Shown one piece after another: positions 49,452 through 63,004 of a DNA stretch of 64,000 nt (within the stretch, counting starts at the first letter, position 1; each line of letters starts with the position of its first letter). The position numbers and the translations under genes are program-made. The notes under the pieces were generated by a model. That model was not told the DNA's origin. It worked only from the letters and a program-made list of their open reading frames with translations, and searched no databases. The stretch covers positions 1 through 64,000 of the forward strand of contig JAJPEP010000064.1 in NCBI GenBank assembly GCA_021166845.1, written 5' to 3'. The stretch is from Thiobacillus sp. Its GTDB lineage: Bacteria > Pseudomonadota > Gammaproteobacteria > Burkholderiales > Thiobacillaceae.

Positions 49452-50379
49452 GCACGACCACGGCGCCGCGTCCGGCCACAGCCACCCTCACACGGCGCAA
49501 AACGGCACCCTGCTCGTCGCCCTGCTGCTGACGCTGGCCTTCGCCGGGGTCGAGGCTGCGGCCGGCTGGTGGTCGGGCTCGCTCGCGCTGCTGGCCGATG
49601 CCGCCCACATGCTCACCGACAGCTCCGCGCTGGGGCTGGCTGCCGCCGCGGCCTGGCTGGCGCGGCGTCCGCCCAGCATGCGTCATTCCTACGGCCTGAT
49701 GCGTGCGGAAGTGCTGGCGGCGCTGTTCAACAGCCTTTTGATGCTGGTGCTGATCGGTTTCATCGTGCGCGAAGCCATCGAGCGCATCGGCGCCCCGCGC
49801 GACATCGCCGGCGGCACGGTCATCACCGTCGCGGTGATCGGCCTCGCGATCAATCTCGCCGTCGCCTGGGTGCTGAGCCGCGGCGAACACACGCTCAACA
49901 GCCGCGCCGCGCTGCTGCATGTGCTGGGCGACGCGCTTGGCTCGGTGGCGGCGATCGCGGCCGGCATCGTCATCGTCGCCACCGGCTGGACCCCGATCGA
50001 CCCGCTGCTGTCCTTGCTGGTGGCGGCGCTGATTCTGGTTTCGGCGCTGCGCCTGCTGCGCGAGGTCGTGCACGTGCTGATGGAGGGCGTGCCGCTCGAT
50101 CTCCGGCTCGACGCCATCGGCCAGGATCTGGCCGGGCTCGACGGCGTGCTGCGGGTGCATGACCTGCACGTGTGGACGCTTTCGTCCGACACCATCGCGC
50201 TGTCGGCCCACCTGGAAATCCGCAGCCTGACCGACTGGCCGGGCATCCTCGCCGCCGCACGCCAGCTGATGGACACGCGGCACGGCATCCACCACGTCAC
50301 GCTGCAACCCGAGGCGCTGGCCGCACAACCGCTCCTGCGCGGCGACTGGCCCCCTCGCGCAGGCGGCTTGCAAGGATAA
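49438..50379 (+). CDS. Cation diffusion facilitator, CzcD/ZitB-like
   Basis: This 313-residue metal/proton antiporter has six predicted helices. Helix II carries ADAAHMLTDSSAL and helix V LLHVLGDALGSV, the paired HxxxD transport-site motifs of zinc-type CDFs. The N-terminus is His-rich (HKHDHGAASGHSHPH). A cytoplasmic C-terminal domain follows (DLHVWTLSSD). The start is GTG inside the last codons of nagZ (14-bp overlap). Substrate is likely Zn2+ or Co2+, by family. Confidence 0.9.
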   Translation: MAAHKHDHGAASGHSHPHTAQNGTLLVALLLTLAFAGVEAAAGWWSGSLALLADAAHMLTDSSALGLAAAAAWLARRPPSMRHSYGLMRAEVLAALFNSLLMLVLIGFIVREAIERIGAPRDIAGGTVITVAVIGLAINLAVAWVLSRGEHTLNSRAALLHVLGDALGSVAAIAAGIVIVATGWTPIDPLLSLLVAALILVSALRLLREVVHVLMEGVPLDLRLDAIGQDLAGLDGVLRVHDLHVWTLSSDTIALSAHLEIRSLTDWPGILAAARQLMDTRHGIHHVTLQPEALAAQPLLRGDWPPRAGGLQG

Positions 50380-50596
50380 ACGCAGGGCCAGACGCGGATC
50401 GTTCGCCCGATGGCTGGTTCGCCGCGGTGTAGGCCGCGCACAGTCGAGAATGAAGCATTCACCTCGCCCTCCCGGACTCGGCTAATCGGCTGAGTCACAC
50501 GCCCCCGCGCGCCGCGCTGAACCAGCGCGCATTCGCCATGCCCGCTGTTCTGTAGGACTCCATCCGCCCTCTTTTGCAAATATTTGCCGCCACCGC
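50380..50596. other. Intergenic stretch, no gene supported
   Basis: These 217 bp between the CDF gene and the hemP promoter contain one small stem, GCGCTG-AAC-CAGCGC near 50515, without a T-run. No coding region or regulatory motif beyond that is supported. Confidence 0.4.
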
Positions 50597-50624
50597 TTGA
50601 CACATTAATGAGAATGGTTATCAT
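50597..50624 (+). promoter_or_regulatory. hemP promoter overlapped by Fur box
   Basis: TTGACA (50597-50602) and TATCAT (50619-50624) are 16 bp apart. TGAGAATGGTTATCA (50609-50623) matches the 7-1-7 Fur core TGATAAT-N-ATTATCA at 12 of 14 positions and covers the spacer and -10, so Fur-Fe2+ binding would block RNA polymerase. Confidence 0.85.
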
Positions 50625-50643
50625 TCGCCAAACACAAACATAC

Positions 50644-50862
50644 ATGAAACCCGATCAAGCCAAACCAGACGCCCAAGCCATGCAAACGCAAACACCTTCA
50701 TCCCTCGATTCTCCGGCCGAGCCCGGCGCGCGAACTTTTCTGCCGGGCACCATCCCGACGGACTACTTATTCCAGGGCAATCAGGAAATCCTGATCAGCC
50801 ATAACGGCGAGCACTATCGCCTGCGCATCACCAAGAACGGCAAACTGATTCTCACCAAGTAA
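50644..50862 (+). CDS. hemP: Hemin uptake protein HemP
   Basis: This 72-residue protein has the HemP signature in its C-terminal 32 residues (LFQGNQEILISHNGEHYRLR and then KNGKLILTK). HemP/HmuP proteins are small beta-rich regulators or accessories of haem and iron uptake genes. The N-terminal half is polar and variable. The leader is very short and without a good ribosome-binding site, so a downstream ATG at 50680 is an alternative start. Confidence 0.9.
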   Translation: MKPDQAKPDAQAMQTQTPSSLDSPAEPGARTFLPGTIPTDYLFQGNQEILISHNGEHYRLRITKNGKLILTK

Positions 50863-50933
50863 GTCCGCCACCGCACCACCCGCCCGCCAACGCGCAAAGC
50901 GCCAGCCAGCCACCTAAACCCAAGGAGACCGGC

Positions 50934-51182
50934 ATGTCCGCACCGCAATATCACGACACCCCCGACATCGTCATCGCCGCCACGCGCTGGCTGATGCGCC
51001 GCTACCGGCGAACCGGCTGCCGCAAGCTCGCCCGCATGGTCGAGCAGCACCTGCGCTGGATGGAATCCTATGCGTCGAATTCGCAGCTTGCTGATGCCTG
51101 TCGGCGTCTGTCGTGCGAGTGGCGCGCGGTCTCGCGCACCCCCGAGGCCGTCAACGCCACCCCGCAATCCACCGTCCACTAA
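50934..51182 (+). CDS. Small protein of unknown function in hemP unit
   Basis: This 82-residue, basic, helical protein has RWLMRRYRRTGCRKLARMVE then QHLRWM in the middle. AAGGAG precedes the ATG at good spacing. It is 71 bp after hemP and probably iron-regulated with it. No domain is recognised. Confidence 0.65.
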   Translation: MSAPQYHDTPDIVIAATRWLMRRYRRTGCRKLARMVEQHLRWMESYASNSQLADACRRLSCEWRAVSRTPEAVNATPQSTVH

Positions 51183-51192
51183 AGGAATCATC

Positions 51193-51651
51193 ATGCGAAC
51201 CTCCCCCACTGCTTCGCTTCTGGTCGCCGCGCTGGTGATGCTGCGCCGCCCCTGTGCGCGCAACAAGGCCACCGCCCAATTGCTGCTCGAGCGCGCGGCC
51301 GAACACAGCGAACTCACACCCGCCGAGCGCGAGGCCTGCCTCAATCTCGCCGAGGATCTGGATATCGAGCGCCCCGAGCCCGCCTTGATTCGCACGCCCC
51401 GGCCGGCTGCGCCGCTCCTGGTTAAACCGCAAGGGGCAGACCGTGGTTGTATAGACGCCAACGCGTCAACAACCACGCTCACCGGCCGGGGAGCCGAGCA
51501 CAGCCGCCGCTTGAGCCTGGTTCCCGGTTTGTCCTTCGCCCCCGACACGGAAGGTGCTCCCGCACGGCTCCATCGTGTACGTGCCCGAAACGGCTGCCGC
51601 CGCCCCGACCGATGCGACGGATCGGGGCGGCCTCTGACGCCCATGCCGTAG
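51193..51651 (+). CDS. Small protein interrupted or extended by REP-like element
   Basis: This 152-residue frame begins 10 bp after the previous stop with AAAGGA as ribosome-binding site. The first 65 residues (MRTSPTASLLVAALVMLRRP, then helical with LTPAEREACLNLAEDL) look like genuine coding sequence. The remainder runs through a palindromic repeat (51427-51480) and then low-quality sequence, so the native protein probably ended earlier. Function unknown. Confidence 0.5.
   Translation: MRTSPTASLLVAALVMLRRPCARNKATAQLLLERAAEHSELTPAEREACLNLAEDLDIERPEPALIRTPRPAAPLLVKPQGADRGCIDANASTTTLTGRGAEHSRRLSLVPGLSFAPDTEGAPARLHRVRARNGCRRPDRCDGSGRPLTPMP
51427..51480 (+). repeat. REP-like palindrome, same family as the 43.6-kb array
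   Basis: CCGCAAGGGG is followed by GTGGTTGT (51443-51450), an inner stem GACGC-CAAC-GCGTC (51454-51467) and ACAACCAC (51469-51476). The outer arms and the CCGCAAGGGG prefix are shared with 43657-43706, whereas the inner stem differs but still pairs. It lies within the reading frame of the 51193 gene. Confidence 0.8.
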
Positions 51652-51724
51652 CGGGTTGCCCAGCTCGCGCCCTGGTTGAAAGCCGGGGCCTCATTTCAGG
51701 ACAAAAACATCATAAAAACTTTTC

Positions 51725-51763
51725 TTGCGCCTGATAACCATTCTCGTTTATGATTAAAATCAT
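51725..51763 (+). promoter_or_regulatory. Promoter and Fur box of the Ftr operon
   Basis: TTGCGC (51725-51730) and TATGAT (51749-51754) are 18 bp apart. TGATAACCATTCTCG (51732-51746) matches the Fur 7-1-7 core at 11 of 14 positions. Directly downstream a perfect palindrome ATGATT-AA-AATCAT (51750-51763) covers the -10 and start region and may be a second operator. Confidence 0.75.
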
Positions 51764-51797
51764 GAACCCGCCCCATCCGCGGTGATGCGGGACGATT

Positions 51798-51905
51798 TCG
51801 GGATCGGCTTTGCGTGCCGATCGAGCATGCCGGCGAGCGTTATCCATTGCGCTAACCCGCAACGGCAAGCCGATCCCGACGAAACAAACCCGGCCCGTCC
51901 GGGTT
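51798..51905 (+). promoter_or_regulatory. Structured 5' leader of the Ftr operon
   Basis: A 13-bp perfect inverted repeat (TCGGGATCGGCTT at 51798-51810, AAGCCGATCCCGA at 51867-51879) would form a long stem closing a 56-nt interior. A second hairpin AACCCGG-CCCGT-CCGGGTT follows at 51887-51905. There is no T-run, so a simple terminator is unlikely. The untranslated leader is about 220 nt. Confidence 0.55.
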
Positions 51906-51984
51906 CAGCAAGCCAACGGGCTCTCCGCCCCAGTAGCCAGCCAACGCAATTTTTTCATTGGCCCCAACTGAGAAGGAGAAGTTC

Positions 51985-52539
51985 ATGGCTATCGTTCGCC
52001 ACCTGTCCGCCCTGGCCCTTGCCGCCAGCCTGTCCACCGCCGCCCTGGCGGCGGAATACCCCATCGGCGCCCCGCAGCAGCGCAGCGGCATGGAAATCGC
52101 CGGCGTCTACCTGCAGCCGGTGGAGATGGAATCCGTGATGGGCCATCAGATGCTGCCCGCCAGCCAGGCGGACGTGCACCTGGAGGCCGACATCCGCGCT
52201 CTGGGCAACAATCCCAACGGCTTCGCCGAGGGCGACTGGATTCCCTACCTGCTGGTGAAGTACGAGGTCTGCAAGCAGGGCGGCGAGTGCATCAAGGGCG
52301 ACTTCCTGCCCATGGTGGCCTCCGACGGCCCGCACTACGGCGACAACGTCAAGCTGATGGGGCCCGGCAAGTACCGCGTCAAGTTCAGCATCCTGCCGCC
52401 CAACGACGAAGGCAACCACGCCGGCCACCACTTCCACCGCCACACCGACCGCCTCACCGGCGTGCGGCCCTGGTTCAAGCGGTTCACCGTGGAATGGGAC
52501 TTCACCTTCGCCGGCATCGGCAAGCGGGGGGGCTATTGA
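51985..52539 (+). CDS. ftrA: P19/Tpd-type periplasmic iron-binding protein (FtrA-like)
   Basis: This 184-residue protein has a signal peptide (MAIVRHLSALALAASLSTAA) and the immunoglobulin-like P19 fold of high-affinity ferrous iron systems. Candidate metal ligands are the Glu/Met/His in VEMESVMGHQM, the His in SDGPHYGDNV and the His cluster NHAGHHFHRHTD. It starts after AAGGAG. It is the first gene of an operon resembling Bordetella ftrABCD and abuts the porin gene. Confidence 0.92.
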   Translation: MAIVRHLSALALAASLSTAALAAEYPIGAPQQRSGMEIAGVYLQPVEMESVMGHQMLPASQADVHLEADIRALGNNPNGFAEGDWIPYLLVKYEVCKQGGECIKGDFLPMVASDGPHYGDNVKLMGPGKYRVKFSILPPNDEGNHAGHHFHRHTDRLTGVRPWFKRFTVEWDFTFAGIGKRGGY

Positions 52540-54002
52540 TGCGCGCCCTGAAACCCCTGATCCTGGCCATGGCCCTGGCCGGCAGCACAAGCGTCGGCGC
52601 GGCCGAATTGCCCGTCGAAGTGGTCCAGGCCCTGCAACAGATGCAGGAACGCCTCGCCCACCTGGAGGCGCGCAACGCCGAGCTGGAGCGTCAACTGGCC
52701 GCCCCGCCCGCCGCCGCCCTGGAAACCCGGGTGAAGCAGCTGGAAAGCGCCAATGCCAAGCTGGAAGAGGCCGTGACCAGCGACCGCCTGTCCCAGGATG
52801 AACCGGAGATCGCCACCCGACTGAAGGCCGTGGAATTCCAGGCCCTGGGCATGCAGAAACAGGCGCGCATGGTGGATGCCCTGGAGGGCATTGCCGCCGG
52901 CGTGTCCTTCACCACCGTGGCGCAACACGCCAACGGCGGCGCCACCACCACGGGCGACGCGGAAAGCGAACTCTCGTGGCGCGGCGACGCCCAGGTGAGC
53001 CTGCCCGGCGGCAGCCTTGGCAACACCGAAGGCAGCCTGTTCTTCCACTTCCGCATGGGCCAGGGCGACGGTCTGGCGAGCCTCAACTCCATGTTCTCGG
53101 TGCCCAACGCCACCGCCTTCCAATTGGGCGGCGTGAGCCAGGCCGACGACGCCTCGCCTATCCTGGCCCAGGCCTGGTACCAGCTTTCGGTGCCGCTGGA
53201 CGAGAAACCCCTGGACCGGAGCCGGCAGCACCTGGAGCTCAACTTCGGCAAGATCGACCCGTTCCTGTTTTTCGACCAGAACGCCGCCGCCGATGACGAG
53301 ACGGTGCGCTTCATGAATCTGGCCTTCGTGCACAACCCGCTGCTGGACGCGGGCGGCGGCGCCGGCGTGGACGCCTATGGCTTCACCCCCGGCGTGCGGC
53401 TGGCCTATTTCGACGACACCCAGGCACCCCTGGGCTGGGGCGTATCCCTCGGCGTGTTCGGCTCCGACAGCGGCGCGGCCTTCAGCGACAGCCTGCAACA
53501 GCCCTTCATCATCCTCCAGGCGGAGTCCGCGCAGCGCTTCTTCGGCGGGCTGGCCGGCAACTACCGCGTCTATGCCTGGCGCAACGGCCGCGCCACGCAC
53601 CTCGACGGCGCCACCCTGGAGGCGCAGAGCGGCTGGGGCGTGTCCGCCGACCAGCGCGTAGGCGACGGCATCACCCTGTGGGGACGCTACGGCCACGGCA
53701 TGCAGGGCAACCCGGCTTTCGACCGGGCGCTCACCCTGGGCGCGGAATTCTCCGGCAACTACTGGGATCGCGGTGCCGACGGCGTCGGCCTGGCCGTGGG
53801 CTGGCTCGCCGCCTCGGACAGCTACAAAACCGCCAACCCCGCCCTCTCCGGCGCCGAGCAACTCGCCGAGCTGTACTACCGTTGGCGCGTGAACCCGCAG
53901 TTCGAGCTGTCCCCGGATTATCAATTCATCCGCCGCGCCGGGGCCGACGGCAGCGCGGACGACGCCCACATCCTGGGCTTGCGCGCCCAGCTCACATTCT
54001 GA
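52539..54002 (+). CDS. OprB-like outer-membrane porin with coiled-coil N-terminus
   Basis: This 487-residue protein has a signal peptide (MRALKPLILAMALAGSTSVG), a coiled coil at about residues 28-90 and an OprB-type barrel (FHFRMGQGDGLASLN, ELNFGKIDPFLFFDQNAA) ending in Phe (LRAQLTF). The ATG overlaps the ftrA stop by 1 bp. Classical FtrABCD operons lack a porin; here it may let metal complexes into the periplasm or tether the envelope. Its solute is unknown. Confidence 0.8.
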   Translation: MRALKPLILAMALAGSTSVGAAELPVEVVQALQQMQERLAHLEARNAELERQLAAPPAAALETRVKQLESANAKLEEAVTSDRLSQDEPEIATRLKAVEFQALGMQKQARMVDALEGIAAGVSFTTVAQHANGGATTTGDAESELSWRGDAQVSLPGGSLGNTEGSLFFHFRMGQGDGLASLNSMFSVPNATAFQLGGVSQADDASPILAQAWYQLSVPLDEKPLDRSRQHLELNFGKIDPFLFFDQNAAADDETVRFMNLAFVHNPLLDAGGGAGVDAYGFTPGVRLAYFDDTQAPLGWGVSLGVFGSDSGAAFSDSLQQPFIILQAESAQRFFGGLAGNYRVYAWRNGRATHLDGATLEAQSGWGVSADQRVGDGITLWGRYGHGMQGNPAFDRALTLGAEFSGNYWDRGADGVGLAVGWLAASDSYKTANPALSGAEQLAELYYRWRVNPQFELSPDYQFIRRAGADGSADDAHILGLRAQLTF

Positions 54003-54012
54003 GACAGACATC

Positions 54013-54342
54013 ATGAAACACCGGCTCATCCGCCCGCTCCTCCTCGCCGCCCTGTATGCCGGGGCGGCCCACGCCGATCTGCCCACTTATACGGTGGTGG
54101 CGAAGGACGGACGGCTTCAGCCGGCCACCCTGGCGGTCCCCGCCGGGGTGCGCTTCAAGATCGTCATCAAGAACGAGGGGCGCGAGCCCATCGAATTCGA
54201 GAGCCTGCAACTCAGGAAGGAAAAAGTGCTGGCCCCCGGCGCCCGGTCCTTCGTGGTCATCGCTCCGCTGAAACCGGGCGAATACGACTTCTTCGACGAA
54301 TTCCATCCCGACACCTCAAAAGGCCGCATCGTCGCGCAATAA
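54013..54342 (+). CDS. ftrB: Periplasmic cupredoxin-like protein (FtrB-like)
   Basis: This 109-residue protein has a signal peptide ending AAHA and a cupredoxin fold (LPTYTVVAKDGRLQPATLAV, IEFESLQLRKEKVLAPG, PGEYDFFDEFHPD). The typical copper Cys is absent and a late His is present, as in FtrB-type proteins that assist oxidation of Fe2+ before Ftr1 transport. It lies 10 bp after the porin gene. Confidence 0.85.
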   Translation: MKHRLIRPLLLAALYAGAAHADLPTYTVVAKDGRLQPATLAVPAGVRFKIVIKNEGREPIEFESLQLRKEKVLAPGARSFVVIAPLKPGEYDFFDEFHPDTSKGRIVAQ

Positions 54343-54352
54343 GAAACCCGCC

Positions 54353-54562
54353 ATGACCCAAGTCCTGCTCGCCGATGCCCTCGATCCCCTCATGCGCCAC
54401 CGTTTGACCGGTTGCCTGCATTCCGACCGCCACGCAGCGCACCTGCTCGATCGGTTGACCGGGCAGCCGGATCTGGACTACGACACCCGCTGCCTGTGCG
54501 GGCGCATGGGCGAGGCGCTGGAGGCCGTTCGGGGTGGGGCAGGAGGGCGTCGCGATGTGTGA
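54353..54562 (+). CDS. Small cytoplasmic protein of unknown function
   Basis: This 69-residue helical protein with two Cys in DTRCLCGRMGEALEAV starts 10 bp after ftrB and overlaps the next start by 8 bp, so it is translated as part of the operon. No family is recognised. The Cys, His and Asp content could suit metal binding, but that is speculation. Confidence 0.6.
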   Translation: MTQVLLADALDPLMRHRLTGCLHSDRHAAHLLDRLTGQPDLDYDTRCLCGRMGEALEAVRGGAGGRRDV

Positions 54563-55853
54563 GCGCCACGGTTTTCTCCCCTTCCCCTTGAAGGGAGAGG
54601 GGTTGGGGGAGAGGATGGGATCGATTGCAGCACAATCGCCCGCCCTCTCCCCGGCCCTCCCCCCCCAAGGGGGAGGGAGAAGAGCGACCCGCCTGAAGCT
54701 CTGGGAACTGGAGGAGAAACACCACTGCCCGGTGGTGGGCACCTGCCTGAACCTGGACGACCTGAGCAAGATCGCGCGCCAGTCCGGCTTCGCGGGCCGC
54801 GGCATCGACCCCTACCGGCTGCACGTGGAGGCGGTCTCCCTGTCCTGCACCCGCAACGGCGCGGCCGAGGCCATGCACAAGCGCATGGACCGCAAGCACG
54901 CGCTGCTGCTGACGCGCTTCGACCAGGCCAGGAGCGACGCCGAGGTGCGCGCCATGTGGCGGCGGCATCTTGATCGCGGCGAAGTGGCCGGCGCCATGTG
55001 GGCCGCCATCACCCACAAGCACGCCAGCAGCGAGACCCGCCAGGTCATTTACGAGGACATCCACATGCTGTCGCACCAGGTCGGCGCCGGCCAGGCCGCC
55101 GATCTGCGCCGACTGGCATTCCTGGAGCGGGAGCATGCCGAACTGCAGCGCCAGGCCCGGCGCGACGGCGAACGCCAGGCCCGGGAACTGGCCGACAAGG
55201 CCGCGCGCATCCACTGGCTGGAAGGCGAAGTGGCGGAAAACCTGAAGCGCGCCGAGGCCGCCTATCCCCTGCGCGCCCGTCTGGAAGTCCTGGAAAACGG
55301 CACCGCCATGATCGAGATGGGCCGCCGCCTGCAGGCCTTTGAGGCGGCGGCCGTGCGTCTGCACGAATCCGCCGCGCGCGCCGCTGCGCTGGAGGAAGAT
55401 AACCGGCGCCTGAGCGAAGAGCGGGACGCGGCTCGGGCCGAGCGGGATGCCCTGGAACGGCTCTGGCTCGGCGAGGCCGGCCAGCCCGGCGCCTGTTCCG
55501 CCGAGTGCGCCGCCTGCCCGCAGCCACTGCGCGGCCGCTGCGTGCTGTGCGTGGGCGGCCGCACCCCGCTGCTGCCGCAGTACCGGCAACTGGCCGAGCG
55601 CCTCGGCGTGCGCCTGATCCACCACGACGGCGGCCGCGAGGAGGCCTTGTCGCGCCTGCCCGACCTGCTCGCCTCATCAGACGCGGTGATCTGCCCCACC
55701 GACTGCGTCAGCCACCCCGCCTATTACCAGTTGAAGCGCCACTGCAAGCAGGCGGGCAAGCCCTGCGTGCTGGTGAAAAGCTCCGGCGTGGGCAGTTTCG
55801 CCGCCGCACTCACCCGTCTGGCGGAAGGCCGGGCCGAGATTCAAGGAGAGTAG
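54555..55853 (+). CDS. DUF2325 protein with in-frame palindromic insertion
   Basis: This 432-residue cytoplasmic protein has a conserved N-terminal region (LWELEEKHHCPVVGTCLNLD), a long central coiled coil (about residues 180-315), a Cys cluster (CSAECAACPQPLRGRC) and a C-terminal DUF2325 domain (VLCVGGRTPLLPQYRQLAER, DAVICPTDCVSH). AGGAGG precedes the ATG at 54555. Codons 7-42 are supplied by a GC-rich palindromic repeat. The DUF's role is unknown; placement before ftrC suggests an iron-related role. Confidence 0.85.
   Translation: MCERHGFLPFPLKGEGLGERMGSIAAQSPALSPALPPQGGGRRATRLKLWELEEKHHCPVVGTCLNLDDLSKIARQSGFAGRGIDPYRLHVEAVSLSCTRNGAAEAMHKRMDRKHALLLTRFDQARSDAEVRAMWRRHLDRGEVAGAMWAAITHKHASSETRQVIYEDIHMLSHQVGAGQAADLRRLAFLEREHAELQRQARRDGERQARELADKAARIHWLEGEVAENLKRAEAAYPLRARLEVLENGTAMIEMGRRLQAFEAAAVRLHESAARAAALEEDNRRLSEERDAARAERDALERLWLGEAGQPGACSAECAACPQPLRGRCVLCVGGRTPLLPQYRQLAERLGVRLIHHDGGREEALSRLPDLLASSDAVICPTDCVSHPAYYQLKRHCKQAGKPCVLVKSSGVGSFAAALTRLAEGRAEIQGE
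54574..54681 (+). repeat. 108-bp palindromic repeat inside the DUF2325 gene
   Basis: Terminal inverted repeats TTCTCCC and GGGAGAA enclose two G/C-tract hairpins around TTGAA and CCCAAGG, mirror images of each other, giving an imperfect inverted repeat over the whole element. It is exactly 108 bp, 36 codons, and keeps the frame open. This CTCCCC/GGGGAG style is typical of intergenic repeats in proteobacteria. Confidence 0.8.
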
Positions 55854-55856
55854 ATC

Positions 55857-56687
55857 ATGGGCAACGCCGCCTTCATCGTCTGGCGCGAGACCATCGAAGC
55901 CATGCTGGTCGTCGGCATCCTGCACGGCTGGCTCTCGGCCCAGTCCGATTTGCTGCTCGACCAGCGCCGCCGCGCGCTGCGCTGGCTATGGGGCGGCGTA
56001 GGCGCCGGCCTGGCGCTGGCCGTGCTGCTGGCGCTGACGCTGCTGGGCATCCGGGCCTGGGCCGACGACACTACGCTGGAGTGGTTCCAGGCGCTCATGC
56101 CGCTGGTCGCTGCCGCGCTGATCTTCCAGATGGTGGTGTGGATGCGCCGTCACGGCGCCGGCCTCAAGCGCGAACTGGAGGCCGGCATGTCCGCCGCCGC
56201 CGAACGCGCGCACTGGGCCGGCATGGCGCTGCTGGCCGCCATCGCGGTGGGCCGCGAGGGCGCCGAGACGGTCATCTTCCTGTATGGCGCCGCCAGCAAC
56301 GACACGGGCGCCGACCTGCTTGCCGGCGGCGTCGCCGGTTTCCTGCTCGCGCTGGCGGCATATGCCGGGCTGGTGCGGGGCGCGCGCTGGTTTTCCTGGC
56401 GGCTGTTCTTCCGCGCAACGGAAATGCTGTTGCTGCTGCTGGGCGGCGCCCTGCTGGTGGACGGCCTCGACAAGCTGATCGGCCTGGAGGCGCTGCCGGC
56501 GCTGGCCGACCCTCTGTGGGACGCCGGTTTCCTGCTGGATGACGGCAGCCGCGCCGGCGGCCTCATCGCCGCCTTCACCGGCTGGCGCGCCCAGCCCGCC
56601 GGACTCAGCTACCTGGCGCTGGCGCTGTGGTGGGGGCTGGCCTTCGCCCTGGCGTTGCGGGCCAGGCCGACGGGGGCGCGGCGATGA
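55857..56687 (+). CDS. ftrC: Ftr1-family iron permease (FtrC-like)
   Basis: This 276-residue inner-membrane permease has seven predicted helices. The two iron-translocation motifs are present: WRETIEAMLV near residue 9 and VGREGAETVIF near residue 126 (REGAE). By family it moves iron from the periplasmic FtrA/FtrB pair into the cytoplasm. It lies 3 bp after the DUF2325 gene and overlaps ftrD by 4 bp. Confidence 0.95.
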   Translation: MGNAAFIVWRETIEAMLVVGILHGWLSAQSDLLLDQRRRALRWLWGGVGAGLALAVLLALTLLGIRAWADDTTLEWFQALMPLVAAALIFQMVVWMRRHGAGLKRELEAGMSAAAERAHWAGMALLAAIAVGREGAETVIFLYGAASNDTGADLLAGGVAGFLLALAAYAGLVRGARWFSWRLFFRATEMLLLLLGGALLVDGLDKLIGLEALPALADPLWDAGFLLDDGSRAGGLIAAFTGWRAQPAGLSYLALALWWGLAFALALRARPTGARR

Positions 56688-58072
56688 GCGCCTGCGGCTC
56701 GGCCTACCGGCCGGCAGCCGGCGCGGGCGACCGTCTGGCCCGGCTGGGCCTCTGGCTGCGCCGCCACCGCGGCAGCATCCTCGCCTTGCAATGGGCGGTG
56801 GTGCTGTTCTACGTCGTGGTGGTGGCCTGGCCCGCCTTCCTGCCCCTGCCCGGCGAAGACGACCACATCCTCGACAACCTCACCCGCTTCGCCCAGTTCC
56901 TGTTCTGGGGCATCTGGTGGCCCTTCGTCATCCTGTCGATGATGACCCTGGGCCGGGTCTGGTGCGGCCTGTTCTGCCCGGAAGGGGCGCTGACCGAATG
57001 GAGTTCGAAGTTCGGCCTCGGCCGCCCGGTGCCGCGCTGGCTGAAGTGGGCCGGCTGGCCGTTCCTGGCCTTCGTGCTGACCACGGTGTTCGGCCAGATG
57101 ACCAGCGTTTACGAATATCCCAAGCCGGCCCTGCTGGTCCTGGGCGGCTCGACGCTGGCCGCGATCGCCGTCGGCCTGCTGTACGGCAAGAACAAACGGG
57201 TGTGGTGCCGCCATTTGTGCCCGGTGTCCGGCGTGTTCGGCCTGCTGGCGCGCATCGCCCCGCTGCACTTCGCCGTGGACCGGGCCGCTTGGGACGCCGC
57301 CGAGTCCGGCGCGCCGGTGCGCTGCGCGCCGCTGATCGATATCCGCCGCATGCAGTCCGCCGCCGCCTGCCACATGTGCGGCCAGTGCGCCGGGCAGCGC
57401 GACGCGGTGCAATTGGCACTGCGCTCGCCGGAACGGGAAATCCTGCGCCTGCCCGATGCCGGCCCGAAGGCCGGGCCCCAGGATCGCTGGCCCGCGCGCC
57501 TGCTCGCCTTCGGCATGCTGGGCGTCGCCCTCGGCGCCTTCCAGTGGAGCGCCAGCCCCTGGTTCGTCGCCGCCAAGCAGAGAGCAGCCGAATGGCTGAT
57601 CGAGCGGGAACTCTGGTGGGCGCTGGACACCCCCGGCCAGTGGTGGCTGTTCACCCACTACCCGGAACTGAACGACGCCTTCACCTGGCTCGACGGCGGC
57701 ATGCTGCTGGCCTACATCGGCGCGACCGCCCTGGCCGTCGGGGGCTGGATCTGGCTCTGCCTGCGGCTGGCCGCCGCCCTTGCAGGGACGCACTGGACCC
57801 GCCTGGCCATGGCCCTGATCCCCTTCGCCGGGGCCAGCGTGTTCGTGGGGCTTTCCCTGCTCACCACCGGCCAGTTGTTCGGCGAGGGCATCGTGCTGGC
57901 CTGGGCCGCGCCGGCCCGGCTCACGCTGCTGGCCCTGGCCGGCCTCTGGTCCGCCAGCTTGGCCTGGCGCTTGGCGGCGGCGGGCGGACGGCGCTGGGCC
58001 GCGCCGATCGGCGTCGCCCTCGCCGCCGCGCTGCCGCTGTGGGCCTGGTACCAGCAATTTTTCGTCTGGTGA
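56684..58072 (+). CDS. ftrD: Membrane polyferredoxin (FtrD-like)
   Basis: This 462-residue NapH/RdxA-type membrane protein has multiple helices and CysxxxCysPro motifs CGLFCPEG and CRHLCPVSG plus a ferredoxin-like CHMCGQC segment. In FtrABCD it passes electrons, probably to re-reduce iron or the partner proteins at the membrane. Its C-terminal third adds about five further helices with no recognised function. The start overlaps ftrC by ATGA. Confidence 0.9.
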   Translation: MSACGSAYRPAAGAGDRLARLGLWLRRHRGSILALQWAVVLFYVVVVAWPAFLPLPGEDDHILDNLTRFAQFLFWGIWWPFVILSMMTLGRVWCGLFCPEGALTEWSSKFGLGRPVPRWLKWAGWPFLAFVLTTVFGQMTSVYEYPKPALLVLGGSTLAAIAVGLLYGKNKRVWCRHLCPVSGVFGLLARIAPLHFAVDRAAWDAAESGAPVRCAPLIDIRRMQSAAACHMCGQCAGQRDAVQLALRSPEREILRLPDAGPKAGPQDRWPARLLAFGMLGVALGAFQWSASPWFVAAKQRAAEWLIERELWWALDTPGQWWLFTHYPELNDAFTWLDGGMLLAYIGATALAVGGWIWLCLRLAAALAGTHWTRLAMALIPFAGASVFVGLSLLTTGQLFGEGIVLAWAAPARLTLLALAGLWSASLAWRLAAAGGRRWAAPIGVALAAALPLWAWYQQFFVW

Positions 58073-58075
58073 ATC

Positions 58076-58246
58076 GTGAACGACAAGCCCCCCGCGCCTG
58101 TCCCGCAGCCGCAAGACCCGCCAGCCCTGCCGCGTTTCCGCAGCGAAGATCTGTTCGCAGGCGGCAAGGTAGTGGTGATCGTCCACGCCGAGCGGGAATA
58201 CCTGCTGCGCCTCACCGCGTCCAACAAGCTGATCCTCACCGCCTGA
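58076..58246 (+). CDS. Second HemP-like small protein
   Basis: This 56-residue frame starts with GTG 3 bp after ftrD. The C-terminal part has LFAGGKVVVIVHAEREYLLR and then ASNKLILTA, clearly parallel to the HemP signature at 50.8 kb (LFQGNQEILIS...YRLR...GKLILTK). The N-terminus is Pro-rich. It is therefore a HemP paralogue at the end of the Ftr operon, with the usual Gly-Lys replaced by Asn-Lys. Confidence 0.75.
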   Translation: MNDKPPAPVPQPQDPPALPRFRSEDLFAGGKVVVIVHAEREYLLRLTASNKLILTA

Positions 58247-58319
58247 GCGCTGCCGCGCCACAAGGGTGAGCCCAGCCGGCATCCCGGCCATCGTCGTTGT
58301 GCCGCCGGCGGGCCATGCT

Positions 58320-58357
58320 CACCCAACTATTGACTTATCACCCAACTATTGACTTAC
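58320..58357 (+). repeat. 19-bp tandem direct repeat carrying duplicated -35 boxes
   Basis: CACCCAACTATTGACTTAT (58320-58338) is followed directly by CACCCAACTATTGACTTAC (58339-58357), differing at one base. Each copy contains TTGACT. Confidence 0.95.
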
Positions 58358-58377
58358 ATAATACGAATTATTATCAT
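58349..58377 (+). promoter_or_regulatory. tonB promoter with Fur box
   Basis: TTGACT (58349-58354) and TATCAT (58372-58377) are 17 bp apart. TACGAATTATTATCA (58362-58376) matches the Fur core at 11 of 14 positions, with a perfect right half-site, and overlaps the -10. The leader to tonB is about 110 nt. Nothing else is seen in 58247-58495. Confidence 0.8.
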
Positions 58378-58495
58378 TACTAATTTTGATTACGATTCGC
58401 CCTGACGGTCTCCGTCCGGGCTGCGTAAAAGCCCCTGTCAAGCAGGGTCGTAGCCAGCCATGGACCGCGGTCCCAGCCAGCATTGTTAGATATTC

Positions 58496-59257
58496 ATGGA
58501 CATGCCTGGGATGACTGCCACGCTTACCGCTTCGCCGGCACTGAAACACGGCCTCACGGAACCGCCGCGCGGAGCCCGATCGACGTTCCAGCGCACGCGT
58601 ATTTCGCCCTCCCCTCTCGTCGGAGTAAGCCTCGCTCACGCCAGCTTGCTCGGCCTGCTGCTGTTCGCACCGAACGCGACGGAACCCGTTGCGCCGCCGC
58701 GCCCGCTGACGGTGAGCCTGATCGAACCCGATACCGAAGAACCGCGACCGCAGCCCGAACCCGCACCCAGGCCACAGCCGCCCAAGCCTGTCGTCAAGCC
58801 CTTGCCTCCGCCGCCGGTACTGGTGGCCGAGTCCCCCCGGCCGACACCGCAACCGGTGGTCGAAGCGCCCAAACCCGACCCGGCGCCCGAACCCGTGCCC
58901 GAGGTGCTGCCGCCGCCTGCGCCGCCGGTCGCGGCGGAAGCGCCCAGGCCTGCGTCGCCGCCTCCACCGCCCGCCACGCCTCCCCGGCCGGCGGATTACC
59001 TGGCCAACCCCAAACCGCCCTATCCCCATCTGTCGCGGCGGCTGGGTGAGGAAGGCCTGGTGCGCCTCAACATTCTGGTCAACCCGGACGGCAGTGTTGC
59101 CCGCCTGGAAATCGCCAAGAGCAGCGGCTATGCGCGCCTCGACCAGTCCGCCATGCACACGGTGCAGTCGAGCTGGAAATTCGAGCCCGCACGCCAGGGC
59201 GGCAAGCCGGTGGCCGCGTGGGTCATCGTGCCGATTCAGTTCACCCTCAGGAGTTAA
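58496..59257 (+). CDS. tonB: TonB energy transducer
   Basis: This 253-residue protein is anchored by a helix at about residues 40-58 (PLVGVSLAHASLLGLLLF). A long Pro-rich periplasmic spacer with Pro-Glu/Pro-Lys repeats follows. The C-terminal domain contains YPHLSRRLGEEGLVRLNILV and SSGYARLDQSA. It couples the proton motive force from ExbB-ExbD to the outer-membrane receptors encoded downstream. An in-frame ATG at 58511 is an alternative start. Confidence 0.95.
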   Translation: MDMPGMTATLTASPALKHGLTEPPRGARSTFQRTRISPSPLVGVSLAHASLLGLLLFAPNATEPVAPPRPLTVSLIEPDTEEPRPQPEPAPRPQPPKPVVKPLPPPPVLVAESPRPTPQPVVEAPKPDPAPEPVPEVLPPPAPPVAAEAPRPASPPPPPATPPRPADYLANPKPPYPHLSRRLGEEGLVRLNILVNPDGSVARLEIAKSSGYARLDQSAMHTVQSSWKFEPARQGGKPVAAWVIVPIQFTLRS

Positions 59258-59260
59258 GTC

Positions 59261-60016
59261 ATGGAAACCGCTGCAACCTCAACCCAACTGGGCTTTGCCC
59301 ACTTCATCGCGCAGGCCGACGGCCTTGCGCACTTCCTGCTCGTCGTGCTGCTGGCGATGTCGGTCGTCACCTGGTATCTCATCGTCAGCAAGAGCCTCGC
59401 CAACTGGCGCATGAAGAAGCACGCGCAGGCTTTCCTCGCGCGTTTCTGGGAGGCCCCCGGTCTCGCGTCGGTGACTGACTACCTGCAGAACCACGGGGTC
59501 AACGACCCGTTCTCGCACCTCACCCACCACGGGCTCAAGGCGGCCGAGCAGTACCGCAACAAGACCGGGCAGCGCCTGATCGAATCCGGCTCGGAAGACG
59601 AATTCCTCACCCGCGCGCTGCGCCGCGCGCTCAACCAGGACACCGCGCGCCTCGAATACGGCCACACCATGCTGGCGTCGATCGCATCCTCCGCACCCTT
59701 TGTCGGCCTGTTCGGCACGGTGTGGGGCATCTATCACGCGCTGGTCAACATCGGCATGTCGGGCTCGGGCAGCCTCGACCAGGTCGCCGGCCCGGTCGGC
59801 GAGGCGCTGATCATGACCGCGCTGGGTCTGGCCGTCGCGATCCCCGCCGTGCTCGCCTACAACTTCTTCAACCGCGCCCGCCGCCAGATGCTCACCGAAG
59901 TCGACGGCTTCGCGCATGACCTGTTCGCCTTCATGTCCACCGGGGTGCGCAACAACACCCGCATCCACGACGACGAAGCGCGCGTCTACGCCGCACCCGC
60001 GGCCAGGAGCGCGTGA
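59261..60016 (+). CDS. exbB: Biopolymer transporter ExbB
   Basis: This 251-residue inner-membrane MotA/TolQ/ExbB proton channel subunit has three transmembrane helices. The conserved core is LASIASSAPFVGLFGTVWGI and GPVGEALIMTALGLAVAIPA. AGGAG precedes the ATG. It overlaps exbD by 1 bp. Confidence 0.96.
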   Translation: METAATSTQLGFAHFIAQADGLAHFLLVVLLAMSVVTWYLIVSKSLANWRMKKHAQAFLARFWEAPGLASVTDYLQNHGVNDPFSHLTHHGLKAAEQYRNKTGQRLIESGSEDEFLTRALRRALNQDTARLEYGHTMLASIASSAPFVGLFGTVWGIYHALVNIGMSGSGSLDQVAGPVGEALIMTALGLAVAIPAVLAYNFFNRARRQMLTEVDGFAHDLFAFMSTGVRNNTRIHDDEARVYAAPAARSA

Positions 60017-60438
60017 TGGCTTTCGGCGGACTCACGAACGACGCCGGCGACGGCGACAACGCGGAAATCAACATGGTCCCGCTGATCGACGTGATGCTGG
60101 TGCTGCTGGTCATTTTCATCATCACCGCGCCCTTGCTGACGCACGCGGTCAAGGTCGACCTGCCGCAGGCGTCGAGCCAGCCGAACGACGTGAAACCCGA
60201 AACGATCAATCTGTCGATCAAGGCCGACGGCACGGTCTACTGGAACGCCGAAGCGGTCGATGCGGCCGCCTGGCAGGCACGGATGGATCTGGCCGCGCAG
60301 AAGAATCCGCAGCCGGAAATCCATATCCGCGCCGACGGTGATCTCGCCTATCGCAACGTCGCCCGGATCATGGCCGACGCCGCGCGCGCCGGGCTTACCA
60401 AGCTGGGGTTCATCACCGACCCCAGGCAAACTCAATGA
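60016..60438 (+). CDS. exbD: Biopolymer transporter ExbD
   Basis: This 140-residue protein has one membrane helix with the proton-relay Asp in NMVPLIDVMLVLLVIFIIT and a periplasmic C-terminal domain (QPEIHIRADGDLAYRNVARI). The ATG at 60016 overlaps the exbB TGA. It forms the ExbBD motor for TonB. Confidence 0.96.
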   Translation: MAFGGLTNDAGDGDNAEINMVPLIDVMLVLLVIFIITAPLLTHAVKVDLPQASSQPNDVKPETINLSIKADGTVYWNAEAVDAAAWQARMDLAAQKNPQPEIHIRADGDLAYRNVARIMADAARAGLTKLGFITDPRQTQ

Positions 60439-60562
60439 GCACGTATGCAATAAAAACCCACCGAACCCGAACGATCTTATAAGCCGTTCTCATCCCGCCC
60501 AGTCAGCCAGCCTCCGGTCAGCCAGCCACGCACAACAACAAATCTGCAAACAGGAGAAACTC

Positions 60563-62632
60563 ATGCGGACTCACCCATCCTTTTACCCCACTCTGAAACT
60601 CTTACCGCTCGCACTCGCAGCTGCGCTGCAAGCTCCAGCGATAGCACTGGCCAACGAAAAGACAGAAGTGGTTTTGCCGCGCATCGACGTAATTTATGGC
60701 GGCGCAGAAGATATTGCCAAGCAGCCCGGTTCTGTCTCGATCATCGATAAAGAGCAACTGGAACGCCTCCAGCCGCTCTCCACCGAAGACGCGCTGCGTC
60801 GTGTTCCGGGCGTCTACATCAAGGGTGAGGAAGAAACCGCCGTCGTCGCCAACATCGGCATCCGCGGCCTGAATGCCGCCGACTACAAGTCGCTGATCCT
60901 CGAAGACGGCGTGCCGGTCGCGCCCGGCCTGTTCGTCGGCAACGGCCGCTACTACAACCCGCGCATCCAGCGCATGGACGAAATCGAAGTACTGAAGGGC
61001 GCCGCGGCGCTGCGCTACGGCCCCAACACCATCGGCGGCGTCATCAACTACAAGACCAAGGACCCTATCGACGGCTTCTCCTTGTCCGGCCGCGCCGGCT
61101 CGAACAACTACCGCGAAGCCACCATCGAAGCCGGCGGCGCGACGCCTTCCGGCGAGGCCAAGGCCGGCCTGTTCTACACCCGCGCGTCCAGCGACGGTTT
61201 CCAGGACAAGGACTTCGATATGCAGGACCTGATGGTCAAGGGCGGCATGGCGCTGGGCGACGACCAGTGGCTGGGCGCGAAATTCACCTACTACGAGAAC
61301 GACGCCAACATTTCGTATCGCGGCCTGTTCCTGGGCGAATTCAACGCCGGCGCCTCATACAACCCCGCACCGGATGACTATTTCCTGACCGAGCGCAAGT
61401 CGCTCGACATCAATCACCTGTGGGAAATCCGCCCCGGCATGAGCCTCAGCACCGTGCTGTACTGGAGCGAGATGTACCGCGACTACTGGCGTTTCGCGGT
61501 CGACAGCGCCGCTTCGACAGCCGCCGGAAGTTGGGTTTACACGGACGTTGTCAACGGCAACAACCGCTCCTTCGACCGCATCGGCCTGGATTCCCGCCTC
61601 ACCGTCGCCAACAAGCTCTTCGGCGTGACCGGCGAAGCCGAAATCGGCGTGCGCATCATGGAAGAAGAGATGGTCGATCAGGGTATCGCCGCGACCCGCG
61701 CCAACCCGCGTACCGGCACGATTACCACCGATCGCGTGGACTCCGCCACCAGCTACGCCCTGTTCGCGCAGAACCGCTTCGACGTAACCGACCGGCTCTC
61801 GATCACCCCCGGCCTGCGCATCGAAAGCTATGAGCAGGAACGAGAAGACCTCCGCAAAGCCGCGAACAACGGCGACAGCTCGAACACCGAATACCTGCCC
61901 GGTCTTGGCGCGACCTATCGGCTCAACCCCGCCGCCCAGCTCTACGGCAGCGTCTACAAAGCCTTCTCGCCGGCGCTGAACTCGCAGTCCATCGTCACCG
62001 GCCTGGATCAGCAACTCGATGCCGAGCACTCGATCAACGTCGAATTCGGTGTGCGCGGCGGCAGCGACAAACTGCGCTACGAGTTCACTGCCTTCCAGAT
62101 GGACTTCGACAACCAGATCACCCCGGCCATCTCGGGCGGCTTGACCAACGCCAACGCCGGCAGCACCCTGCATCGCGGTCTGGAAGCGGCGATGGGTTAT
62201 CGCTGGAACAACGGCTTCAGCGTCGACGGCAACCTGACCTGGATCCCGGTCTCGGAATACCGCGAGGATCGCAGCGGCGGCATCAACCAGGGTAACCGCC
62301 TGCCCTACTCGCCCGAACTGCTGGCGAACCTGAGCCTTGGCTACGCGTCGGGTCCGGTCAGCACTGCGCTCTCCTGGAATTATGTCGATGAACAGTTCGG
62401 CAACGGCAACAACACCACGCCGATTACCGGCAGCGGCAACTCCGTCTGGTCAGGCCTGCTCCCGAGCTACTACACCGTCGACCTCACCGGAAGCTATGAC
62501 GTCAACAAACAGCTCAAGCTGTTCGGCGCGATCAAGAACCTGACCGACGAGCGCTACATCGCCGGCCTGCGTCAGGGTATCTACGCCGGTCCCGAACGGG
62601 CATTCGAAGCGGGTGCGAAATACACCTTCTGA
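60563..62632 (+). CDS. FecA-like TonB-dependent receptor
   Basis: This 689-residue outer-membrane receptor has a signal peptide ending AIALA. The plug domain contains IDVIYGGAEDIAKQPGSVSI, EDALRRVPGVYIKGEE, NIGIRGLNAADYK and IEVLKGAAALRYGPNTIGGV, closest in character to ferric dicitrate receptors. The barrel ends in Phe (AGAKYTF). AGGAG precedes the ATG. There is no N-terminal signalling extension, so it does not control an ECF sigma factor. The ligand is probably a ferric chelate. Confidence 0.92.
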   Translation: MRTHPSFYPTLKLLPLALAAALQAPAIALANEKTEVVLPRIDVIYGGAEDIAKQPGSVSIIDKEQLERLQPLSTEDALRRVPGVYIKGEEETAVVANIGIRGLNAADYKSLILEDGVPVAPGLFVGNGRYYNPRIQRMDEIEVLKGAAALRYGPNTIGGVINYKTKDPIDGFSLSGRAGSNNYREATIEAGGATPSGEAKAGLFYTRASSDGFQDKDFDMQDLMVKGGMALGDDQWLGAKFTYYENDANISYRGLFLGEFNAGASYNPAPDDYFLTERKSLDINHLWEIRPGMSLSTVLYWSEMYRDYWRFAVDSAASTAAGSWVYTDVVNGNNRSFDRIGLDSRLTVANKLFGVTGEAEIGVRIMEEEMVDQGIAATRANPRTGTITTDRVDSATSYALFAQNRFDVTDRLSITPGLRIESYEQEREDLRKAANNGDSSNTEYLPGLGATYRLNPAAQLYGSVYKAFSPALNSQSIVTGLDQQLDAEHSINVEFGVRGGSDKLRYEFTAFQMDFDNQITPAISGGLTNANAGSTLHRGLEAAMGYRWNNGFSVDGNLTWIPVSEYREDRSGGINQGNRLPYSPELLANLSLGYASGPVSTALSWNYVDEQFGNGNNTTPITGSGNSVWSGLLPSYYTVDLTGSYDVNKQLKLFGAIKNLTDERYIAGLRQGIYAGPERAFEAGAKYTF

Positions 62633-62659
62633 CCCTGCGTAACGACTTCCGAGGAAAAC

Positions 62660-63000
62660 GTGGTCGTCACCATTGACAAGGTACTGACCTCCGACGCGCT
62701 GGCGGCAATCCGCCAACAGCTCGCCGGGGCGAACTGGGCGACCGGCCTGTCGGCCGGCGCGCAGGCCGCGCTCGTCAAGAAAACCAGTAACTCCCGGAGG
62801 ACGCGCCGCAGCTGCGCGAACTCCGGCTTCTCGTCATGCGCGCGCTGAACCGCAGCAAGGTTCTGCTTTCCGCCGCCCTGCCGAACAAGATTCGGCCGCC
62901 CAAATTCAACCGCCATTGCGGCGACACCAACACCTACGGCTGGCACGCCGACAACGCCTTGTCAGCCAGCCACATCACTCTTCCAATCGAACGAGACTGA
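62660..63000 (+). pseudogene. Decayed PKHD-type Fe(II)/2OG dioxygenase (PiuC/YbiX-like)
   Basis: A GTG-started frame encodes IDKVLTSDALAAIRQQL and QAALVKKTSN, typical of the PiuC N-terminus. The continuation LPEDAPQLRELRLLVMRALN, LLSAALPNKIRPPKFNR and YGWHADNA is in another frame after a shift at about 62780-62795. The protein then ends shortly after the first iron-binding His/Asp pair, lacking the second His and the C-terminal half. It sits between two TonB receptors, the usual place for this enzyme. Confidence 0.82.
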
Positions 63001-63004
63001 AATC

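Follow-up and report, generated by a model that had tools for sequence, protein, structure and literature searches.

An FtrAPBCD-type iron operon of Thiobacillus with an HPRE-like leader element and a candidate iron-starvation cassette

Background

Iron importers of the FtrABCD type have been described in Bordetella, Brucella and Burkholderia, and residues E84, E86, E93, D118 and H121 have been noted in Brucella FtrB (PMC11966278, PMC5681537). A five-gene version, FtrAPBCD, is known from Rubrivivax gelatinosus, where an extra gene, FtrP, lies between A and B (FEBS J 2022; PMC11966278). The small proteins HemP, HmuP and ChuP have been described as regulators. Expression of chuR and vbuA in Chromobacterium is raised by ChuP; both genes have a HmuP-responsive element (HPRE) in the 5' leader, and deletion of ChuP lowers the mRNA of HPRE-bearing genes (PMC9131926). 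In Burkholderia, hemP is found beside or upstream of ftr, and its 3' region yields the small RNA (sRNA) BrrF (PMC7377471). Finally, Cj1384 of Campylobacter is a short, PerR-regulated DUF2325 protein with seven cysteines, encoded beside katA and a heme-trafficking gene (PMC9426514). These statements follow the available portions of the cited reports. Here, we consider a 64,000-nucleotide stretch of Thiobacillus DNA (contig JAJPEP010000064.1, positions 1 to 64,000; hereafter the window), in which an Ftr-type operon is preceded by an HPRE-like element and contains a cassette made up of a gene for a 69-residue protein and a DUF2325 gene.

We read this locus, from sequence, as a Fur-controlled FtrAPBCD operon with additional HemP/HPRE control and an accessory cytoplasmic iron-starvation cassette, and we would put the probability of this reading at about two in three. 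In the literature searched, with subscription journals mostly outside that search, we found neither an HPRE described ahead of ftr nor DUF2325 connected with the uptake of iron.

The operon and its importer core

The source genome (G000) is a metagenome-assembled genome of the Thiobacillus group, 3.2 Mb in size, 86% complete and 6% contaminated. Domains were called with Pfam, and models for EfeU, EfeO and other proteins came from NCBIfam, with cut-offs as supplied. Eight genes occupy 51985-58246 on one strand, separated by overlaps or short gaps only, in the order P19 (FtrA), OprB-type porin, cupredoxin (FtrB), 69-residue protein, DUF2325, Ftr1 (FtrC), polyferredoxin (FtrD) and HemP:

51985-52539, plus strand: ftrA (P19; Iron_transport, PF10634, E 5.4e-60)
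52539-54002, plus strand: OprB-type coiled-coil porin in the FtrP position (OprB, PF04966, 2.9e-20), with one base in common with P19
54013-54342, plus strand: ftrB, cupredoxin (Cupredoxin_1, PF13473, 5e-30)
54353-54562, plus strand: gene for the 69-residue protein of the TGC motif family (no Pfam match; assigned by alignment and profile)
54555-55853, plus strand: long DUF2325 gene (PF10087, 1.7e-25), overlapping the preceding open reading frame (ORF) by 8 bp
55857-56687, plus strand: ftrC, Ftr1 permease (FTR1, PF03239, 3.4e-22)
56684-58072, plus strand: ftrD, polyferredoxin (Fer4_5, PF12801, 7.2e-12), overlapping ftrC by 4 bp
58076-58246, plus strand: hemP2 (PF10636, E 2.4e-13)

A preliminary description of this DNA had proposed an eight-gene operon at these positions, built around an Ftr-type importer, and both proposals hold up well: seven of the eight genes are named by Pfam, all on the same strand, and the Pfam hits and order of P19, cupredoxin, Ftr1 and polyferredoxin are those of an Ftr importer. 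The full order, from hemP to hemP, was also found in Thiobacillus sp. 65-29 (G010, of the same genus as the source genome; locus L047, the same as L118). By eye, FtrB contains E-x-E-x6-E and D-x-x-H at the spacing of the Brucella residues listed above, and the Ftr1 permease has two R-E-x-x-E motifs, WRETIEA and GREGAET. The NCBIfam models for EfeU (133 bits against a cut-off of 255) and EfeO (23 against 297) both fall below their cut-offs, and the locus is therefore an Ftr system rather than EfeUOB; the same collection has no match for the porin, P19, 69-residue or DUF2325 proteins.

How unusual is the porin? We compared 41 distinct Ftr loci, after removal of the duplicates L047=L118, L099=L147 and L155=L098; forty of these form the set in which leaders were scored, and the porin-bearing L126 lies outside it. 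A porin gene stands between P19 and cupredoxin in 23 of the 41 (13 with an HPRE octamer in the leader, 9 with an octamer-free leader, plus L126), so that its portrayal as a special enlargement of this operon cannot be sustained. The four-gene form, with no porin call, accounts for 19 of the 41, and 18 of these have octamer-free leaders. From the position of its gene, FtrP of Rubrivivax would appear to be a porin. Both a porin and a hemP beside ftr are already known parts. A variant arrangement is seen in L121 (9.4-12.7 kb), which reads FtrA-porin-FtrB-69-residue protein-DUF2325-FtrD and continues with Bfd, ferritin and peroxiredoxin; no Ftr1 permease was found there between DUF2325 and FtrD.

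An HPRE-like element in the ftr leader

The HPRE was reportedly defined by Amarelle et al. in 2019. We fixed the octamer AGCCAGCC before counting, from two sequences in PMC9131926. Fur-like boxes were scored as bases matching a 19-base sequence that we take to be the Fur consensus, with p from 1000 dinucleotide shuffles. The predicted signals and hemP sequences around the operon are as follows:

50604-50622, plus strand: Fur-like box before hemP1 (14/19, shuffle p 0.002)
50644-50862, plus strand: hemP1 (PF10636, E 8.6e-18; start codon picked by eye in an open frame)
50904-50911, plus strand: HPRE-like AGCCAGCC before an 82-residue ORF
51727-51745, plus strand: Fur-like box of the ftr operon (13/19, shuffle p 0.024)
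51796-51884, plus strand: frameshifted hemP relic of the P19 leader, lying in two frames (own hemP profile)
51906-51943, plus strand: bipartite HPRE-like element of the P19 leader, consisting of CAGCAAGCCA (one base off), GGGC-TCTCC-GCCC and GTAGCCAGCCA
58357-58375, plus strand: Fur-like box before tonB (14/19, shuffle p 0.003)
58450-58482, plus strand: HPRE-like element before tonB, with the octamer at 58452
60505-60527, plus strand: HPRE-like pair (60505/60520) before a TonB-dependent receptor gene
62964-62971, plus strand: HPRE-like site before a second TonB-dependent receptor gene

In the P19 leader the exact octamer is at 51935, and it is the upstream block that is one base off. We counted 17 copies of the octamer in the window, where 4.1 would be expected, and six of these copies head P19, tonB, the two receptors and the ORF after hemP1. 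In the named loci, a copy is present in the 300 bp before 5/8 P19 genes, 20/41 TonB-dependent receptors and 7/17 tonB genes, and before 10/81 DUF2325, 3/15 bfr and 1/35 hemP genes; none was found upstream of exbB (0/19), exbD (0/20) or ftrD (0/13). The other genes of the same loci have it in 20 of 851 cases, and genes in random loci in 9 of 554; the random control throughout is 40 stretches of 20 kb from 20 closed genomes of the same order. When the opposite strand of these leaders is counted instead, the figures are 0/8 for P19, 1/41 for receptors, 0/17 for tonB and 18/851 for the others.

In its frequent form the element consists of two GCCAGCC blocks flanking a short hairpin of varying sequence, and the linkers between the blocks average -4.39 kcal/mol against -2.50 for shuffles. 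A covariance model of the element was set aside, its automatic structure having differed from the intended hairpin. The bipartite form has three exact hits in G000, two of them not before a recognised iron gene. The third, on contig C3 at 69315 (L256), precedes a receptor-like gene 5.3 kb beyond the window. HPRE-like repeats also precede bacterioferritin-type genes (L126 18958-18997; L155/L160), a storage rather than an uptake target.

What links the element to HemP is its distribution. The octamer is present in 13 of the 40 distinct Ftr leaders and absent from 27, and a same-strand hemP gene is found upstream in 12 of the 13 and in none of the 27; the loci are related to one another, and these counts are therefore not independent events. 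Among porin-bearing loci alone the figures are 12/13 and 0/9. At least 2.5 kb upstream was examined for 25 of the 27 octamer-free leaders (0.7 kb for L063, 1.4 kb for L098). All nine genomes with the element encode hemP. In the window, hemP1 and hemP2 score 64.4 and 50.1 bits (PF10636; cut-off 25). The relic in the P19 leader scores 19.1 bits (E 1.6e-5 when 13 kb are scanned), with a weak continuation in the next frame, and an intact hemP stands in its place in L047/L118, L056, L057, L058 and L059. Neither this relic nor the HPRE-like element after it figured in the preliminary description. Control of the ftr leader by HemP may be inferred from this co-occurrence and by analogy with ChuP. The view of HemP as a transport component must be given up, since the family is described as regulatory in the available text of PMC9131926. 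The DUF2325 and 69-residue proteins were also entertained as the factor that reads the HPRE and were dropped, because five element-bearing genomes (G202, G123, G082, G063, G115) have no PF10087 hit.

The 69-residue protein/DUF2325 cassette

The long DUF2325 protein has a His/Cys-rich N-terminal domain, a coiled coil and then the DUF2325 domain, which scores 89.4 bits in the window protein against a gathering score of 33.6 (PF10087). In 62 long DUF2325 proteins, residues C13, C19, H45, H125, H129, H312, H342 and C352 (alignment numbering) are invariant. The 69-residue protein heads a small family with an invariant TGC motif in the alignment; Pfam has no match for the window member and weak scattered hits for others (best E 0.0044, in 2 of 22). 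The two genes tend to travel together. Starting from the best 80 of 531 confirmed relatives, with at least 598 stretches matched, we assembled 79 DUF2325 loci. Of these, 34 encode a member of the 69-residue family in the 850 bp before DUF2325, compared with 0 of 40 random loci, and in 27 the distance is at most 300 bp. The small family is also found in the Ftr loci of G123 and G063, genomes that lack DUF2325. In L166, L173, L179, L181, L183, L185 and L188, a coiled-coil protein starting MLAPLKDR appears, by eye, to be encoded between the 69-residue-type gene and DUF2325, and it resembles DUF2325's own coil.

The surroundings of DUF2325 are rich in iron genes. An FTR-system gene is present in 16/79 DUF2325 loci (0/40 random), hemP in 30/79 (0/40), and any iron marker in 48/79 (3/40). 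A Fur-like box at shuffle p<=0.05 lies within 600 bp upstream in 41 of the 79, compared with 4 of 89 random transcription-unit starts; box or marker is found in 73/79, a union with no matched control. When 300 genomes of the order were sampled independently, DUF2325 was present in 88 and FTR1 in at least 126. In 55 genomes, with the source genome excluded, at least 10 DUF2325 hits are no more than 15 kb away from FTR1, against 0.75 expected (pairs and sizes entered by hand).

The Ftr operon is one setting among several. Other neighbours of DUF2325 are a cytochrome c-FTR1 fusion (L051, L103), TonB-ExbBD (L123) and a FUR-family gene (L113, L129), and elsewhere it stands by itself behind a Fur-like box. 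L117 and L156 have the order porin-DUF2325-hemP, followed by imelysin and DHOR; L117 has no small gene between its porin and DUF2325 genes. These recurrent settings do not bear out the earlier idea that DUF2325 is a dedicated Ftr part. Among 35 relatives of the window's genus, six have the long DUF2325, and among the stretches read it lies in an Ftr operon only in G010. Short DUF2325 proteins (~100-130 residues) are encoded in L100, L101, L103, L104, L105 and L106, in most cases divergently from the gene for a cytochrome c-FTR1 fusion, and Bfd, ferritin-like, patatin-like and TonB receptor genes are found close by (gene names checked for L103, the others read by eye); L103 combines the short DUF2325 with the fusion, Bfd and ferritin.

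One relative lacks the cassette. G202, a 99% complete genome of the same genus, has no PF10087 hit and retains FtrAPBCD at ~92% DNA identity. Scars are recognisable there at the starts of the 69-residue gene, hemP2 and tonB (scores 45 vs 34, 47 vs 26 and 67 vs 54, against the best of 500 shuffles), and the scar sought at the DUF2325 end is unsupported (25 vs 29 for shuffles). These remnants indicate that the cassette is lost in G202 along with hemP2 and tonB. Considering that G202 keeps FtrAPBCD but not the cassette, the cassette is therefore accessory and dispensable for keeping FtrAPBCD. We propose, from these sequence comparisons, that the cassette is part of the broader Fur regulon and not of Ftr itself.

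Neighbouring features

The genes that follow the operon, and two further features of the window, are listed here:

50934-51182, plus strand: 82-residue ORF after hemP1, with a TGC motif and the HPRE-like site in front
54573-54683, plus strand: long palindrome in the in-frame variable linker of DUF2325 (minimum free energy -82.9 kcal/mol, z -6.0)
58496-60438, plus strand: tonB, exbB and exbD (read by eye)
~60563-62632, plus strand: TonB-dependent receptor (start picked by eye)
start near 63005, plus strand: second TonB-dependent receptor

The 82-residue ORF was considered as a paralogue of the 69-residue protein and rejected; the family profile has no match to it at E 1e-3. The 121-bp stretch at the palindrome is single-copy in G000, and the linker varies among relatives. 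Rfam has no HPRE family on 50000-64000 and gave sub-threshold hits only, 11 of 12 being miRNA models on the palindrome.

Weighing the alternatives

Several observations weigh against our reading. Fur control of the ftr operon is predicted, with modest confidence, from the box at 51727-51745 alone, and six of the 79 DUF2325 loci (L151, L152, L162, L178, L189, L191) have neither box nor iron marker. Because the best 80 of 531 relatives were kept, those 79 loci are skewed towards relatives of the window, and Zoogloea is over-represented. A search of PDB sequences with the DUF2325 and 69-residue families gave coiled-coil or chance matches only, and DUF2325 has no relative of known structure there. 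As for the element, no more than 13 of 60 linkers are more stable than shuffles at p<=0.05, and the minimum fold of the window's full P19 leader lacks the HPRE hairpin (z -0.95). A scan of the order for the bipartite motif matched 166 of 200 genomes, with listed hits mostly coding-like, and was too noisy to use. Eight of the 25 genomes without the element encode hemP, and L254 has the element with no hemP in 3.9 kb upstream. Finally, the element directly follows hemP in several P19 leaders, and it could therefore belong to the hemP mRNA.

This last arrangement is the starting point for a different account of the element, namely that the repeat is the 3' end of the hemP transcript, or the target of another factor such as BrrF or an RNA-binding protein, while HemP only co-travels. 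In Burkholderia, BrrF is indeed processed from the 3' end of hemP, and the ftr cluster can come next (PMC7377471, available text). We regard this account as rather doubtful, considering that the element heads genes that do not follow hemP, such as P19 after exbD in L097, L166, L185 and L188 and the window receptors after exbD or after another receptor, and that loss of ChuP lowers the mRNA of element-bearing genes in Chromobacterium. Could the enrichment instead be a compositional accident of GC-rich genomes? Eleven of the 17 window octamers lie outside the five listed leaders (one was placed, inside exbD), and order-wide pattern counts are noisy. An accident is nonetheless highly improbable in view of the strand bias and gene-class specificity within the same loci, with the low rate in other gene classes, the zero counts for exbB, exbD and ftrD, and the 13-to-27 split that follows hemP.

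The cassette invites two further explanations. The porin, Ftr, DUF2325 and HemP might together form a single machine dedicated to import, reaching from the outer membrane to the cytoplasm, with DUF2325 receiving iron from Ftr1. Predicted co-transcription, the gene overlaps and the identical order in Thiobacillus sp. 65-29 favour this, as does the repeated joining of DUF2325 to Ftr loci: between ftrB and ftrC (window, L118), between ftrB and ftrD (L121), after ftrD (L126, L167), before hemP-tonB (L097, L166, L185) or divergently (L146, L147). However, DUF2325 is nearby on the same strand in only 8 of the 41 Ftr loci, 63 of the 79 DUF2325 stretches have no FTR-system gene, G202 keeps FtrAPBCD without it, and in L117 and L156 the cassette precedes imelysin and DHOR; we think such a machine quite unlikely. 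A redox or oxidative-stress module, linked to iron genes only through common control by Fur or PerR, is unlikely too, if worth taking seriously: the PerR-regulated Cj1384 lies beside katA (PMC9426514, available text), and a peroxiredoxin gene occurs in 9/79 DUF2325 loci compared with 2/40 random ones. Against this stand the Fur-like boxes upstream and the much more frequent iron markers (48/79).

A proposed pathway and its meaning

Gene order, family membership, the element, its co-occurrence with hemP and the loss of the cassette are established at the level of sequence. From these we infer transport, regulation and all of the chemistry of DUF2325 and the 69-residue protein, as follows. In our reading of the locus as a Fur-controlled FtrAPBCD operon with HemP/HPRE control and an accessory cassette, Fur would leave the promoter and the whole operon would be transcribed as one unit. 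The HemP proteins (hemP1, hemP2) would act on the leader HPRE to increase expression at a post-transcriptional step, as with ChuP/HmuP and TonB-dependent receptors. Iron(II) would cross the outer membrane through the porin, FtrA and FtrB would bind and oxidise it in the periplasm, the FtrC permease would move it inward, and FtrD would serve as the electron exit. The 69-residue and DUF2325 proteins would most likely be cytoplasmic and bind iron, heme or another metal through conserved His and Cys residues, buffering or sensing it in starvation. A role for DUF2325 as a cytoplasmic sensor or storage partner is possible, and metal or heme binding is our guess from the conserved His/Cys residues and the neighbouring genes.

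If this is true, HemP, known for heme receptors and one siderophore receptor, would also govern ferrous-iron import; one small protein would link the supply of heme, siderophore and Fe(II), and HemP would control more than heme uptake. DUF2325, an uncharacterised domain that is rare in the literature searched, would gain an iron-starvation context, a small partner and a list of conserved His and Cys residues. A broader view, which we offer tentatively and at somewhat less than even odds, is that HemP and the bipartite GCCAGCC element form a general post-transcriptional iron-starvation layer in Betaproteobacteria (covering Ftr, TonB-ExbBD and receptors, in some cases also bacterioferritin and DUF2325), and that the 69-residue/DUF2325 pair is a new cytoplasmic iron or heme module of the Fur regulon.

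Comparison with known systems

Among the closest described systems, FtrAPBCD of Rubrivivax gelatinosus has the same A-P-B-C-D order, the porin being likened to FtrP by position only. Not shared are the 69-residue and DUF2325 genes that separate B from C in the window, its terminal hemP2 and its HPRE leader. With FtrABCD of Bordetella, Brucella and Burkholderia it shares P19, cupredoxin, FTR1 permease, polyferredoxin and the spacing of the FtrB residues (PMC11966278, PMC5681537, in their available parts), and it adds the porin, the cassette and the HPRE. The hemP-BrrF-ftr region of Burkholderia likewise has hemP upstream of ftr, but there the hemP 3' end gives rise to an sRNA, and HPRE goes unmentioned in the available part of PMC7377471. 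The DUF2325 domain and a stress- or metal-linked regulation are common to the window protein and Cj1384 (PMC9426514, available text), whereas Cj1384 is 104 residues long and without the N-terminal domain or coiled coil. Finally, the HmuP/HemP/ChuP systems have HemP family proteins and the AGCCAGCC repeat in the 5' leader, as the window does; the targets in the available text of PMC9131926 are TonB-dependent receptors, while in the window an HPRE-like element stands before tonB and before an operon for the import of ferrous iron.

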